Source: Megasphaera massiliensis (GTDB lineage: Bacteria; Bacillota; Negativicutes; Veillonellales; Megasphaeraceae). From it: a stretch of DNA of 33,472 nt. The notes beneath the pieces were generated by a model. That model searched no databases and was not told the DNA's origin. It saw only the letters and a list, made by a program, of their open reading frames with translations. The position numbers and the translations under genes were made by a program. The stretch is taken from contig NZ_HF954558.1 of NCBI RefSeq assembly GCF_000455225.1, forward strand, positions 1 through 33,472, written 5' to 3'. Shown here piece by piece: positions 340-32,063 of the stretch; position 1 is the stretch's first letter; every line of letters begins with the position of its first letter.

Positions 340-1350
340 CTATACCGTTTCATCCCAGGCATCGCAGCAGCAAACGGTTATGGTGTTGACGATGGTTTCT
401 ACCGTCGAGGCCCGTGACAGATCCATGACCGGTTTGGCCAACCCTTGCAGAAGAGGTCCCAAAACGGTCACGCCGGCAACGTGTTCCAACATCTTACAGC
501 AAATATTTCCCGTATTTAAGTCGGGAAAGACGAGGACATCGGCCTTACCGGCTACGGGAGAACGCGGTGCCCACGCTTTGGCATAGGACGGAATCAGCGC
601 GATATCTACTTCCATTTCACCGTCAAAAAGGAAATCGACGTTGCGGTCACTTAAAATCTGAACGGCTTTGCGCACCGTATCGGCGCCGCGGCCCCGTTCG
701 CTCCCCATCGTCGAATACGATAAGAGGGCTACCTTAGGTGAATCAATCTTCAGTGTCCGACGTGCCCGGTCCACACAGCTGCAGGCAATGTCTGCCAGTT
801 GGTATTCATCCGGTGTCGGGATGACGTCACCATCTCCGGCAACTAAAACACCATCATGACCAAACTGCAGCATGTCCGTCAGAAGAATAAAAGAACTGCT
901 GACCGTATCGATTCCCTTGCGGGGACCGATAATTTGTAAAGCCGCATGAAGCACGTCCGGCGCCGGCGTTTCCAATCCGGCAACCATGCCGGCCGCCTCG
1001 CCGGAAGCAACCATAAAGGCGCCAAAATAGAGGGGCGTCCGTAAAAAGCGCCGGCTTTCTTCCATGGTCATTCCGGATGCTCGCCGCATCCGGGCATATT
1101 TTTTCGCAAAACTTTCGAAATGCGTATGTTCTTTCGGATATATCAATTCAGCCCCCTCTAAGTCCAATTGATATCGAAAGGCCAATTCCTGGATATCCTG
1201 TCGTTTTCCAATCAGTACCGGAACGGCCAATCCGTCTGCCAAAATCCGATCAGCAGCCTGCAGCATACGAAGGTCGCCGCTTTCAGGCAGAACGATTTTT
1301 TGTGGTTTTGAAGCTGCCCGCCGCTTCAAAGACGTCATATACCGATTCAT
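340..1350 (-). CDS. Phosphate acetyltransferase-like protein with altered active site
   Basis: The 336-residue product is a full-length single-domain member of the PTA_PTB family, whose classical enzymes interconvert acetyl-CoA and acetyl phosphate in the cytoplasm. Family landmarks are SSSFILLTD (151-159), LSYSTMGS (210-217), FDGEM (242-246), SPVAGKADVLVFPDLNTGN (264-282) and GPLLQGLAKPVMDLSR (298-313). It departs from the canonical SRGCSVEDI motif, reading SRASTVETI at 312-320, so the Asp proposed as catalytic base in the Methanosarcina enzyme is Thr319. A usually conserved Arg before ALQ is His135. The start is preceded by GGAAGGGAT. It has its own promoter and follows the terminator of the fusion gene, whose N-terminal half is its paralog. 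True Pta activity is doubtful; a different acyl-CoA substrate or a regulatory role is possible. Confidence 0.85.
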   Translation of the reverse strand: MNRYMTSLKRRAASKPQKIVLPESGDLRMLQAADRILADGLAVPVLIGKRQDIQELAFRYQLDLEGAELIYPKEHTHFESFAKKYARMRRASGMTMEESRRFLRTPLYFGAFMVASGEAAGMVAGLETPAPDVLHAALQIIGPRKGIDTVSSSFILLTDMLQFGHDGVLVAGDGDVIPTPDEYQLADIACSCVDRARRTLKIDSPKVALLSYSTMGSERGRGADTVRKAVQILSDRNVDFLFDGEMEVDIALIPSYAKAWAPRSPVAGKADVLVFPDLNTGNICCKMLEHVAGVTVLGPLLQGLAKPVMDLSRASTVETIVNTITVCCCDAWDETV

Positions 1351-1412: not shown

Positions 1413-1464
1413 GGACGAAAGCCCATACAGCCCTTTCCGATAGCAGAGAGGGCTGTATGGGCTT
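1405..1464 (-). terminator. Rho-independent terminator after the Pta-hydrogenase gene
   Basis: A perfect 14-bp stem, 1421-1434 with 1449-1462, extends to 16 bp with flanking A-T pairs around a 14-base loop. On the minus strand it is followed by a T-rich tract (TTTCGTCCTTGC). It lies about 20 bp beyond the stop of the fusion gene. Confidence 0.8.
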
Positions 1465-1482
1465 CACGGGATAGCCTTACGT

Positions 1483-3924
1483 TTATTTGAGAACGGGCTG
1501 AATCTTGTCTTCCTTTCCCAGAAGGTAATGTTTATTGATGTACTGCGTGTGAAGCAGCGCTTCGGACAAATCGCTGCCGGGCTCTCCCAAAAATTTCGCA
1601 TATAACGTCTGTAGTTCCTTATTTTCCCAGCTGGCCCGAATCGGCTTTTGGGCATCCAGCTGATAGAGCGCTTCAATGCGGGCACGCTTAGCCGGAATCT
1701 CAAGAGGCAACGGAGTCCGTGGCTGACCGCCCCCGCCAATGCAGCCGCCTGGACAGGCCATGACTTCAATTAAGGCATATTTTTTCCACGAATGCTTTTC
1801 TTCCATCAAATTGATGAACCGACGGGCATTGGCCAGTCCGCTGACGGCAACGACACGGATGATGTCGTTATCAAGAGTCAGGGCCGCTTCCTTGACACCT
1901 TCCAGTCCGCGCACGGCTTCAAAGCGGAGAAAATCATCCTCTGCCGGTTTATTCGTCTTCAAGTAAACGAGGGTACGAAGGACCGCTTCCATCAATCCGC
2001 CGCTGTTGCCAAAGAGTTCCCCGCCGCCGGACGATTCGCAAAAGACCGTATCGCAGGCAGCATTTTCAAGATTGTCAAAGTCGATTTTCTTTTCTTTAAT
2101 CCACCCGGCCAACTCCCGCGTCGTAATACAGTAATCCGTATCGCGCATGTCCGCCTGCTGCCAATAACGGCCGGCAGCATTTTGTTCCGGTCTGGATATT
2201 TCCGCCTTCTTTGCCGTACATGGCGTCACCGAGACAATGACTAGTTTGGAGGGATCAATGTGCATGCGCTTGGCGAAATACGTTTTAATCATCGGACTGA
2301 GCATACTGCTCGGACTCCGGCCCGTCGACAAGTGCGGAATCAACTCGGGGAAAAAGATTTCTGTAAATTCGACCCATGACGGACAGGCACTGGTGAACTG
2401 CGGCAACAGTTCTTTCTTATGATCCATACGATGCAGAAGTTCCGATGCTTCTTCTATAATAGCTAAATCGGCCCCAAAGTTAGTGTCAAAAACGTAATTT
2501 CCTCCGAGCCGGCGCAGGGCCGCTATTATTTTCCCTTCCACATTGTCGCCAAAGTCTTTCCCGAAGGCATCGCCAAGGGCCACGCCGACGGCCGACGACG
2601 TTTGAAATACGACGACCTTGTCCGGATCATCGATAGCTTTTTGAATCTCAGCCCGCTGAGAAACGGTCGTCGTCGCTCCGAACATGCAGGTCAGCGAGCA
2701 CTGGCCGCAGTGGACACAGATAGGGATATCCCCCGTACTTTCTAACGAGTAATACCCCGTCATAGACATGACTTCAGCGCAGCGGCGGCGACAGAGGGTA
2801 CAGTTTCGGCATTTTTCCGGATCAAACTGAATCGAGATATTGCGGTTTTCAACGGCGACTCGGCTGTCGAGTTGTTCAAATCGACTGGTAAAGGCCATGT
2901 CTCGTTTCTTTTCAGCCTGCATGTAAATGGCATCGCTGCAGCAGATAGCAATGACATCCGTAATGCCTTCAGCCGTACAACCGCGGGACAGATCCATGAC
3001 CGGCTTGGCAAGACCTTGGAGGAGCGGCCCCAGCGCCGTGGCACCGGACAGGTGTTCTAAAACTTTATAACAAATATTGCCCGAAACGAGATTGGGAAAT
3101 ACAAGGACATTGGCTTGACCGGCAACGGGAGAACCGGGCGCCTTCTGACGGGCAATCCGCGGTACGAGAGCCGCATCGGCCTGCATCTCGCCGTCAAACT
3201 CGAAATCAACATTGCGGTCCCTTAGGAGACGGACGGCTTCACGGACGCGTTCTACCTCTTCACCGGCACCACTGCCCATCGTCGAATACGACAAAAAAGC
3301 CACTTTCGGATCAAGGGTCTGCGCCGTCCGGCGTGCCCGTTCTACACAACTGACGGCAATATCAGCCAATTGCTGCGGCGTCGGTTCGATGACGACACTA
3401 CAGTCGCCGATGACAAAGATGCCGTCATCGCCAAACTGAGGCTTATCGGTAATCATGATGAAAGAACTGCTCACCGTCGACAGGCCCGGATGCGGTCCGA
3501 TGACCTGCAGGGCGGCCCGAATGACTTCTGATGACGTGGCAACGGCGCCGGCTACCATGCCGTCAGCGATATCAAAGACGACGAGACAGGCGGCAAAAAA
3601 AATATAATTCGTCAAAAGGACTTTCCGCGCCTCAGCAACGGTCATCCCTTTTTTCGCCCGCCGCTTTGCATAATATCGGCAAAAGGTATCCAACATGGGA
3701 TACGTTTCCGGATCGATGATTTCGATGCCGTCCATATCGATTTGATACTCGGAAGCGACTTCGACGATGCTCTGCGGTCGTCCGATCAGAATCGGCCGGG
3801 CAAAGCCTTCGGCCTGGACCCGTTCTGCTGCCTGCAGAATCCTACGGCTTTCCGATTCCGGCAGGACGATCTTCTTTTGTTCTTTGGCAACGCGGCGTTT
3901 CAAATTATTAATAAAGCGCGACAT
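1483..3924 (-). CDS. Phosphotransacetylase-[FeFe]-hydrogenase fusion protein
   Basis: One uninterrupted 813-residue frame joins two enzymes. Residues 1-335 are a complete PTA_PTB domain (SSSFIMITD, LSYSTMGS, GPLLQGLAKPVMDLSRGC). A linker of about 35 residues leads to a two-[4Fe-4S] ferredoxin domain (Cys372, 375, 378, 382 and 403, 406, 409, 413). The H-cluster domain follows: TSACPSW (Cys514), TPCTAKKAE (Cys569) and MACPGGCIGGGGQP (Cys724, Cys728), so all four cluster ligands are present. The position before Cys514, a proton-relaying Cys in classical enzymes, is Ala513. The Met of MPC is Thr567. The Pta motif reads SRGCTAEGI, with Gly320 in place of the proposed catalytic Asp. I chose ATG 3924, with GAGGTG seven bases upstream, over an in-frame GTG at 3951. 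The internal Met at 2898 has no good Shine-Dalgarno, favouring a real fusion. Expected role: cytoplasmic H2 metabolism linked to acetyl-CoA or acetyl phosphate (inference). Confidence 0.9.
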   Translation of the reverse strand: MSRFINNLKRRVAKEQKKIVLPESESRRILQAAERVQAEGFARPILIGRPQSIVEVASEYQIDMDGIEIIDPETYPMLDTFCRYYAKRRAKKGMTVAEARKVLLTNYIFFAACLVVFDIADGMVAGAVATSSEVIRAALQVIGPHPGLSTVSSSFIMITDKPQFGDDGIFVIGDCSVVIEPTPQQLADIAVSCVERARRTAQTLDPKVAFLSYSTMGSGAGEEVERVREAVRLLRDRNVDFEFDGEMQADAALVPRIARQKAPGSPVAGQANVLVFPNLVSGNICYKVLEHLSGATALGPLLQGLAKPVMDLSRGCTAEGITDVIAICCSDAIYMQAEKKRDMAFTSRFEQLDSRVAVENRNISIQFDPEKCRNCTLCRRRCAEVMSMTGYYSLESTGDIPICVHCGQCSLTCMFGATTTVSQRAEIQKAIDDPDKVVVFQTSSAVGVALGDAFGKDFGDNVEGKIIAALRRLGGNYVFDTNFGADLAIIEEASELLHRMDHKKELLPQFTSACPSWVEFTEIFFPELIPHLSTGRSPSSMLSPMIKTYFAKRMHIDPSKLVIVSVTPCTAKKAEISRPEQNAAGRYWQQADMRDTDYCITTRELAGWIKEKKIDFDNLENAACDTVFCESSGGGELFGNSGGLMEAVLRTLVYLKTNKPAEDDFLRFEAVRGLEGVKEAALTLDNDIIRVVAVSGLANARRFINLMEEKHSWKKYALIEVMACPGGCIGGGGQPRTPLPLEIPAKRARIEALYQLDAQKPIRASWENKELQTLYAKFLGEPGSDLSEALLHTQYINKHYLLGKEDKIQPVLK

Positions 3925-4053: not shown

Positions 4054-4083
4054 AAAAAGGAGCCGCCCCGAAAGGCAGCTCCT
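4054..4083 (-). terminator. Terminator of glmS
   Basis: On the minus strand AGGAGC-T-GCC pairs with GGC-G-GCTCCT around a short loop and is followed by TTTTTGT. It lies about 20 bp past the glmS stop codon. Confidence 0.85.
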
Positions 4084-4105
4084 CTATACAGACTGGGTTA
4101 TGTAA

Positions 4106-5954: not shown

Positions 5955-6105
5955 AAAGTTTTTTCCCTCTTATGATGAAGTTGTCGACAATGTTACCACT
6001 GTAATTTTCCATCATATGACGACTGAAGGTGTGCCGAGAGACATCCGCTGACAATTCGATACTTCTCTACCTCGTCTACCTGAATCGTTCAGGTACTAGC
6101 GCTAT
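5955..6105 (-). ncRNA. glmS ribozyme / riboswitch (GlcN6P-activated self-cleaving RNA)
   Basis: The minus-strand leader of glmS carries the hallmark core of this family: AGCGCTAG at the 5' end, then GACGAGGTAGAG, TATCGAATTGTCAGCGGAT and GTCTCTCGGC, in the same order and spacing as in the Bacillus subtilis ribozyme. Cleavage is predicted between the A at 6103 and the G at 6102. When GlcN6P is high the mRNA is cut and then degraded, lowering GlmS. The 3' boundary is approximate; the RNA ends shortly before the Shine-Dalgarno at about 5945. Confidence 0.93.
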
Positions 6106-6141
6106 CCATTATGACGTTAAGGATTTCCAAACGCCTGTATA

Positions 6142-31317: not shown

Positions 31318-31668
31318 GGGGATGTAAAGGTTTCGACGTGGATGGTTGTATCATGAATAGCGAGCCGGGGTTTCATCTGCCCGTAAATCGGTGAACCTTT
31401 TAAATTAAACGCAAAAGAAAACAATTTTGCTTTAGCTGCCTAAGGGCGGCTAACGTCTCTTGCTGCTAATCCTGCGGGCAGTTTGCAGACGTCACTTAGC
31501 GGGATACCACATGGTTTTGCCTGGCAGCCGTGTCGGGAAACTCACAGGCTGGAATCGTCTAGTTTGTCCTTGTACGAAAACGGTTCAAGATACTAACAAG
31601 GTCTGCGCTCGGAGAAGTTCATGGGGCAGCATTTACGGACAGGAGTTCGACTCTCCTCATCTCCACCA
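31318..31668 (+). ncRNA. ssrA: Transfer-messenger RNA (tmRNA)
   Basis: The 5' end GGGGATG pairs with CATCTCC just before the encoded 3' ACCA, giving the tRNA-like acceptor. GTAAAGGTTTCGACG near the 5' end and GGAGTTCGACTCTCC (T-arm) near the 3' end are diagnostic. The tag-reading frame at 31411-31443 encodes AKENNFALAA and then TAA, a normal proteolysis tag. tmRNA rescues stalled ribosomes together with SmpB. The length of 351 bases is typical, and the gene is one-piece. Confidence 0.98.
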
Positions 31669-31776: not shown

Positions 31777-31804
31777 AAGGTGCATAACTTAAACACGATA
31801 TATT

Positions 31805-32063
31805 GACATTCGATGACGAGAAAGAGTACAGCTTTGCAAAAGTACACAGCGAGCCGGGTATGGTGAAAGCCGGCAGCCGGAGGAAGCATGGAAAATCATC
31901 TCTGAGGATTGCAGTTGAAATGAGTAAACTGCACCGTCTGATCCACGTTACAGGAAATGCGTATGATAGTACGTTACAAAGAGCCTTGCGTCTTTTGGCA
32001 AGGAATATCGGGTGGTACCGCGGATAAAACTTCCGTCCCTTTAGTGGGGCGGGAGTTTTTTTA
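31805..32063 (+). ncRNA. T-box riboswitch, probably isoleucine-specific
   Basis: The leader shows Stem I elements (GAGAAAGAGTA, then AGCGAGCCGGGTATGGTG and its partner arm). It has the T-box sequence CGGGTGGTACCGCG at 32009-32022 and a terminator stem ACTTCCGTCCC/GGGGCGGGAGT (32028-32057) ending in a T-tract. Aligning the specifier loop (GAA, one base, triplet, A) gives GAA-A-AUC-A at about 31892-31899, so AUC (Ile) is my reading. The UGGU bulge calls for a tRNA with A73, which suits tRNA-Ile and argues against Asn or Trp readings. Uncharged tRNA would switch the transporter on. Confidence 0.92.

Follow-up and report, generated by a model that had tools for sequence, protein, structure and literature searches.

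For acid-forming bacteria of guts and fermenters, H2 evolution is a main outlet for electrons; that it keeps pace with the acyl-CoA pool is generally attributed to thermodynamics and the supply of ferredoxin. A phosphotransacetylase (PTA) domain appended to a redox enzyme is known from the MaeB malic enzymes, in which it acts as an acetyl-CoA sensor and carries acetyl-CoA occupancy 60 Å to the redox domain; PTA domains also form oligomers (PMC7902834). The window analysed here, the first 33,472 bases of contig C27 (NZ_HF954558.1) of the Megasphaera massiliensis assembly GCF_000455225.1 (G000; 2.74 Mb, 99.96% complete), encodes a PTA fused in one frame to an [FeFe]-hydrogenase. The PTA-hydrogenase fusion is real. 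Comparison with relatives tentatively suggests a group A, M2-type hydrogenase whose N-terminal PTA may bind acyl-CoA or acyl phosphate and serve mainly a regulatory role; the domain seems to have been acquired a single time by an ancestor within the Megasphaera family.

The plus strand at 1483-3924 is interrupted by many stops, and the frame sits on the minus strand. The gene and its parts are as follows:

1483-3924, minus strand: PTA-[FeFe]-hydrogenase fusion gene, 813 amino acids, ATG at 3924, stop codon at 1485-1483
2941-3915, minus strand: PTA_PTB domain, residues 4-328 (Pfam, 367 bits)
2965-2967, minus strand: codon of Gly320, aligned to the catalytic Asp316 of M. thermophila Pta
2845-2940, minus strand: junction (approximately residues 329-360), where the end of the PTA passes into the hydrogenase's own N-terminus
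2779-2811, minus strand: first [4Fe-4S] motif, CRNCTLCRRRC, residues 372-382 (four Cys in 8/8 fusions)
2686-2718, minus strand: second [4Fe-4S] motif, CVHCGQCSLTC, residues 403-413 (four Cys in 8/8 fusions)
1729-2619, minus strand: H-domain, Fe_hyd_lg_C, residues 436-732 (Pfam, 266 bits)
2386-2388, minus strand: codon of Ala513 in TSACP, aligned to the place of the proton-relay Cys (C299 of the hydrogenase CpI)
1534-1689, minus strand: small-subunit tail, Fe_hyd_SSU, residues 746-797 (Pfam, 68 bits)

The protein passes both the TIGR00651 pta model (338.2 bits; cut-off 311.2) and the TIGR02512 FeFe_hydrog_A model of group A (421.1 bits; cut-off 405.95). By sequence, the solved chains nearest to its PTA_PTB domain are 8fir, 6iow and 1qzt, and both [4Fe-4S] motifs fit the pattern CxxCxxCxxxC. 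A plausible Shine-Dalgarno sequence, AGGTG, lies 7 nt 5' of the ATG. An earlier reading of these letters without database searches (the sequence-only reading) had claimed a single frame, naming no strand, with a full PTA_PTB domain, two [4Fe-4S] motifs and a complete H-cluster domain; the domains and motifs listed above confirm it, and Pfam adds the small-subunit tail.

In the genome's free hydrogenase the N-terminus reads MPEFHSRFENIDRRV, which aligns with MAFTSRFEQLDSRV of the fusion, and this alignment indicates that the hydrogenase half was joined at its native start. Such a junction would suit a protein that is translated or processed into separate halves and is a fusion on paper only, as would the fact that the window's clade (G000 and its close relatives G009 and G010) has Met343, the internal Met closest to where the hydrogenase begins. 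However, Met343 is Ile in 5/8 homologous fusions and is therefore no conserved start, while Met335, kept in 7/8, has no Shine-Dalgarno sequence in the window. No promoter-like match falls at 2900-2960, and no terminator-like site was found between 2412 and 4056; the matches in the region as a whole are near chance (promoter-like: 6, against a mean of 3.7 in shuffles). The sequence-only reading was thus correct that the internal Met lacks a clear Shine-Dalgarno sequence and that the junction lacks a promoter or terminator. An internal start is rejected as a conserved feature, although one may operate in the window's clade, and production of separate halves is highly improbable. An artefact or frameshift at 2900-2960 is likewise rejected, since open full-length homologues exist in six other genomes. 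Chance is ruled out because no stop has entered the frame between lineages that share 81% protein identity and are at or close to saturation at synonymous sites. A fold model gives mostly confident values for the PTA part and predicts a single helix spanning the junction (residues 318-353), with low confidence from residue 340.

The same domain order occurs in 8 of the 17 family genomes, seven with an open frame and one with a broken frame. Within the genus it is open in 6/15 genomes, the five besides the window's being 98, 95, 81, 81 and 81% identical to the window protein, and frame-broken in a seventh (G006, strain NM10). The sister-genus copy (G016) is 63% identical over residues 57-810, or 58% over 866 aligned positions. 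None of the 44 other genomes of the order has a match spanning both halves in one frame, and no more fusions appeared in a 350-genome class sample (E <=1e-165) or a 398-genome phylum sample (E <=1e-160), thresholds that a very divergent copy could escape. A peptide-pattern scan of 84,980 species with six short peptides, which distant fusions could also escape, yielded 433 relatives; among the best 80 that were kept, six span the whole query; every one is from Megasphaera, and the six include the broken NM10 copy. The nearest fusions among the matches listed are those of Megasphaera sp. UBA1696 (98%), MJR8396C (95%) and M. cerevisiae DSM 20462 (81%). Looking for the domain order in other Negativicutes, as the sequence-only reading had proposed, finds it in this family and nowhere else among the genomes of the order or, at E <=1e-165, in the class sample. 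Adjacency elsewhere is no fusion: at the Spirochaetota locus L044 a PTA and a hydrogenase are both present as separate genes about 5 kb apart.

In the hydrogenase tree, the corresponding parts of the eight fusions form one clade (100/100; supports are ultrafast bootstrap and SH-aLRT). The G016 fusion (L025 / L129:5850-8510) carries an insertion of about 54 residues resembling an internal duplication of its PTA part. In G006 (L134), the fusion and the PTA gene next to it are frame-broken, and neighbouring genes are also broken or shortened. Because other genes on this contig are shortened or broken, the G006 break looks like sequencing error, and it probably reflects a low-quality assembly rather than biology.

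If both halves were catalysts, the fusion would be a bifunctional enzyme in which the joining does no more than bring acetyl phosphate formation and H2 evolution to one place or put them under common regulation. The PTA active site bears on this in both directions. Residues are numbered after M. thermophila Pta (numbering checked); PMC9706017 is the source for what Asp316 and Ser309 do and for which residues, Gln286 among them, contact CoA. The fused PTA shares 62% identity with the genome's free PTA. Ser309 and Arg310 are kept in 8/8 fusions, a point for catalysis together with the passed TIGR00651 cut-off, and Asp316 is kept in two (G001 and G006). However, Asp316 is replaced in the other six: the position reads G,G,G,N,N,D,D,E across the eight, with Gly in three, Asn in two and Asp in two of the genus copies and Glu in G016. 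All 25 free PTA rows, 23 of them different, have Asp. The seven genus fusions keep R87, R133, S128, Q244, K257, N279, Y282, K283, S309, R310 and C312, the broken G006 copy having been read in two halves for this comparison. In the window, Asp316 is Gly (Gly320), and S309, R310 and the residues of the CoA pocket are kept except Gln286, which is Glu, and Arg287, which is His.

The hydrogenase half shows a similar mixture. With residues numbered after D. desulfuricans, in which Cys178 corresponds to C299 of CpI, the eight [4Fe-4S] Cys and four H-cluster Cys are kept in 8/8 fusions, as are E156, E159, R163 and K237. The tested proton-relay and cluster residues are all canonical in 4/7 genus fusions, which would again suit a bifunctional enzyme. 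The relay Cys178, invariant in 25/25 non-fused hydrogenases and kept in five of the eight fusions, is Ala in all three members of the window's clade. The C299A variant of CpI releases H2 at less than 1% of the wild-type rate (PMC6226526), and Ala stands at this place in about 43% of sensory hydrogenases (PMC10055695). G016 has S198A and TSCCS. Of 111 columns that are invariant among 19 non-fused rows, D. desulfuricans included, 16-19 are altered in each fusion of the window's clade, against 6-7 in each of the four remaining genus fusions and 13 in G016. Five changes, A107S, P108S, R111G, C178A and I204S, are confined to the window's clade (at 204, 3/25 non-fused rows have Gln); A107, P108 and I204 presumably line the H-cluster pocket. 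M232T was rejected as a fusion-specific change since free copies also have Thr or Ala there. NM10 keeps both Asp316 and Cys178 and is sister to the window's clade in the hydrogenase tree (98/91), so the replacements of Asp and Cys seem to share a single branch. Among other hydrogenases, three of about 580 amino acids (L150, L151 and L044) have TSCSP as the first H-cluster motif, with Ser, as aligned, at a cluster-ligand column.

The source genome also encodes a free PTA and a free M2 hydrogenase, both with their catalytic residues, the maturation protein HydF, and one acetate kinase, whose gene lies on another contig than the fusion. With these genes, acetate and H2 could be formed in the ordinary way without the fusion, which is an addition to them. 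A free PTA is present in 17/17 family genomes and a free M2 hydrogenase in 6/8 fusion genomes, the two without one, G011 and G012, being 83% and 78% complete. The ubiquity of the free PTA and the placement of the sole acetate kinase gene on another contig weigh against a bifunctional enzyme, as do the replacement of Asp316 in 6/8 fusions, R287H in 7/8 and loss of the relay Cys in 3/8, and catalysis by both halves is thus rather unlikely. A further hydrogenase-like protein of 413 amino acids with a TSCCCP motif is encoded at L152 (G000:C27:100800-104600) and is perhaps of the monomeric group B kind. In M. cerevisiae, a flux model assigns a critical role to H2 production, and of its two hydrogenases one is described as NADH-dependent group A6 (PMC13400456); one of the two may be the fusion.

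Purifying selection acts on both fused halves and on the PTA gene behind them. Within the window's clade, the fused PTA part has a dN/dS of 0.018-0.029, the fused hydrogenase part 0.047-0.060 and the PTA behind the fusion 0.047-0.064, compared with 0.008-0.015 for the free hydrogenase of the same three genomes; many wider pairs were saturated at synonymous sites and gave no usable dN/dS. The fused hydrogenase is therefore less constrained than its free paralogue, as it would be in a redundant, slowly decaying paralogue whose active-site losses are drift after duplication. Decay would also suit the failure to find the fusion in 9/17 family genomes, the broken frame in G006, and the insertion and further pocket losses in G016. 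However, the dN/dS values of both halves and of the neighbouring PTA gene still lie far under 1, all Fe-S and H-cluster Cys are kept in 8/8 fusions, and the broken and shortened genes on the G006 contig look like sequencing error, making decay improbable. Alternatively, the PTA could be an oligomerisation scaffold for the hydrogenase, its ligand binding a relic. PTA domains do oligomerise (PMC7902834), and in the window's clade the PTA part is conserved at least as well as the hydrogenase part (dN 0.011-0.015 versus 0.013-0.042), but a scaffold should not need as much of the CoA/acyl pocket as the genus copies retain, which is most of it. A pure scaffold is accordingly judged quite unlikely.

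Three further elements flank the fusion:

340-1350, minus strand: tandem degenerate PTA paralogue, 336 amino acids, reaching neither the TIGR00651 nor the NF007233 cut-off
1424-1468, minus strand: strong hairpin between the fusion and the tandem PTA, a near-perfect inverted repeat without a strong T-run
4056-4085, minus strand: terminator-like site between glmS and the fusion gene, a consensus match only

The tandem PTA scores 272.6 bits on TIGR00651, below 311.2. It lies 3' of the fusion in all seven genus copies (cut by the contig end in G012, broken in G006) and is absent behind the sister-genus fusion of G016. It has Thr at position 316 in the six copies that reach it and has also lost Y282, K257, Q244, G311 and C312; these losses suggest that the window copy and its equivalents (L007, L008, L010 and L011) are likely pseudo-enzymes. 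In the PTA tree, seven fused and five tandem PTAs form one clade (98/99), within which the genus copies, fused and tandem together, split from G016 (99/98). The broken G006 copy was left out of this tree and of the dN/dS of fusion and tandem gene, as was the cut-off G012 tandem gene from the tree and dN/dS; row L045, grouped with the fusions in this tree by a length rule, is a MaeB-like protein, which makes the tree's summary value for the fusion group unusable, and the fork support of the seven fused plus five tandem rows (98/99) is given instead. The simplest history would be one fusion event followed by a duplication that left a lone PTA behind the fusion. The stretch 1385-1485 folds with a minimum free energy of -42.4 kcal/mol (z -7.35), and the hairpin is possibly a terminator or attenuator.

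Gene neighbourhoods were compared in seven of the fusion genomes (all but G010). The fusion follows glmS in G000, G001, G006 and G009 and follows tpi of a gap-gpm-cggR-pgk-tpi run in G011 and G012; in G016 its neighbours are other genes. CggR was named from Pfam and glmS is backed by the glmS ribozyme 5' of it; we take the remaining names (gap, gpm, pgk, tpi) from the look of the sequences. Since the neighbourhood varies across genomes, a shared operon with one function is unsupported. The window also holds, as ordinary features, the glmS ribozyme at 5961-6114 (minus strand), a tmRNA gene at 31318-31668 (plus strand) and, 5' of an MFS transporter gene, a T-box leader at 31804-32043 (plus strand).

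A fused PTA that binds ligand and regulates is the best fit because its pocket is mostly kept, the catalytic Asp is repeatedly replaced, the gene is under strong purifying selection and a degenerate PTA lies next to it. Under this tentative regulatory reading, the PTA would form a dimer, possibly mixed with the tandem PTA, and bind acetyl-CoA or another acyl-CoA; binding would shift its conformation through the short junction, and the acyl-CoA (or acyl phosphate) state would thereby set ferredoxin-dependent H2 evolution. Fusions of the M. cerevisiae type, with both Cys and Asp kept, would be gated H2-evolving enzymes, and in the window's clade the hydrogenase would be a slow or sensor-like form. 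For that clade, a double pseudo-enzyme that works with the tandem PTA as a coincidence sensor, its two inputs being acyl-CoA supply and the H2/ferredoxin redox state, is also conceivable but unlikely; in it the H-cluster ligands would be kept with proton transfer throttled, and the PTA would bind acyl-CoA without turnover. Of the two functions put forward by the sequence-only reading, acyl-CoA gating of the hydrogenase is plausible by analogy with MaeB, and bringing acetate formation and H2 evolution together in one place is less likely for the window's clade. Its fusion, domain set and rarity stand, while a plainly catalytic interpretation does not agree with the window's Asp316Gly, Arg287His and relay Cys to Ala.

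Several observations weigh against the regulatory reading. The pocket is altered, with Arg287 replaced by His in 7/8 fusions (all seven genus copies) and the CoA contact Gln286 by Glu in 6/7 genus fusions; G016 keeps R287 and Q286 but lacks R133 and, in the alignment next to its insertion, R87 as well. The G001 and G006 fusions, with Asp316 kept, may be active PTAs. In the window the other proton-relay residues, E156, E159 and S198, are intact, unlike in sensory hydrogenases, where the rest of the relay is also changed (PMC8163306). The fold model, built on a 14-sequence alignment, has a mean pLDDT of 71.5 and values below 50 at residues 340-420. Finally, a control set of MaeB-like PTAs weakens the direct MaeB analogy. 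Its 66 MaeB-like rows, so labelled only by a PTA part starting beyond residue 380 of a long frame (the set also held five short and three other rows), have lost R310 in 66/66 and keep Asp316 in 46/66. Because R310 is kept in 8/8 fusions, the fused PTA looks unlike the MaeB sensor, and because most MaeB-like rows keep Asp316, its loss was rejected as sole proof of a sensor. By these residues, the fused PTA has been altered in another way, and its pocket is still largely in place.

If the regulatory reading is true, a hydrogenase with a built-in acyl-CoA-binding domain would mean direct allosteric control of H2 evolution. The fusions also offer a natural series, from the M. cerevisiae type with both catalytic residues, through types with Asn or Glu in the PTA, to the window type with both changed, which allows a stepwise test of the passage from an enzyme pair to a regulated or sensory protein.

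The sequence-only reading knew of no described enzyme that couples such an acetyl-CoA-binding domain to H2 catalysis. This holds for the hydrogenase partner: no title or abstract opening in the open-licence literature searched names a PTA-hydrogenase fusion (subscription journals were mostly outside the search), and a word search of the review PMC8924675 found none of the words phosphotransacetylase, acetyltransferase, fused and Megasphaera. It does not hold for the principle, since MaeB already uses an appended PTA as an acetyl-CoA sensor (PMC7902834).

Compared with known systems, the fusion resembles MaeB (6ZNG and others; PMC7902834) in carrying an added PTA domain on a redox enzyme from central metabolism, but its PTA is N-terminal, in reversed order, its partner is a hydrogenase, and Pfam finds no malic enzyme catalytic domain in it. 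With the sensory hydrogenases HydS of groups C and D (PMC10055695, PMC8163306), the window's clade (3/8 fusions) shares Ala in place of the relay Cys; unlike them, the window fusion passes the group A model, keeps E156, E159 and S198, and has no PAS domain (Pfam) and no Cys after the ACPGGC motif. Relative to M. thermophila Pta (1QZT), the whole domain is present and most CoA/acyl-pocket residues are kept in the genus copies, whereas the window fusion has Asp316Gly, Arg287His, Gln286Glu and a fused hydrogenase. Its two [4Fe-4S] motifs, four cluster Cys and small-subunit tail are like those of the M2-type group A enzyme HydAB of D. desulfuricans (8RYH), from which the window's clade differs by the relay Cys to Ala change and by A107S, P108S, R111G and I204S. 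The free M2-type group A hydrogenases of the family are 49-57% identical to the fusion, which adds to this architecture an N-terminal PTA domain.

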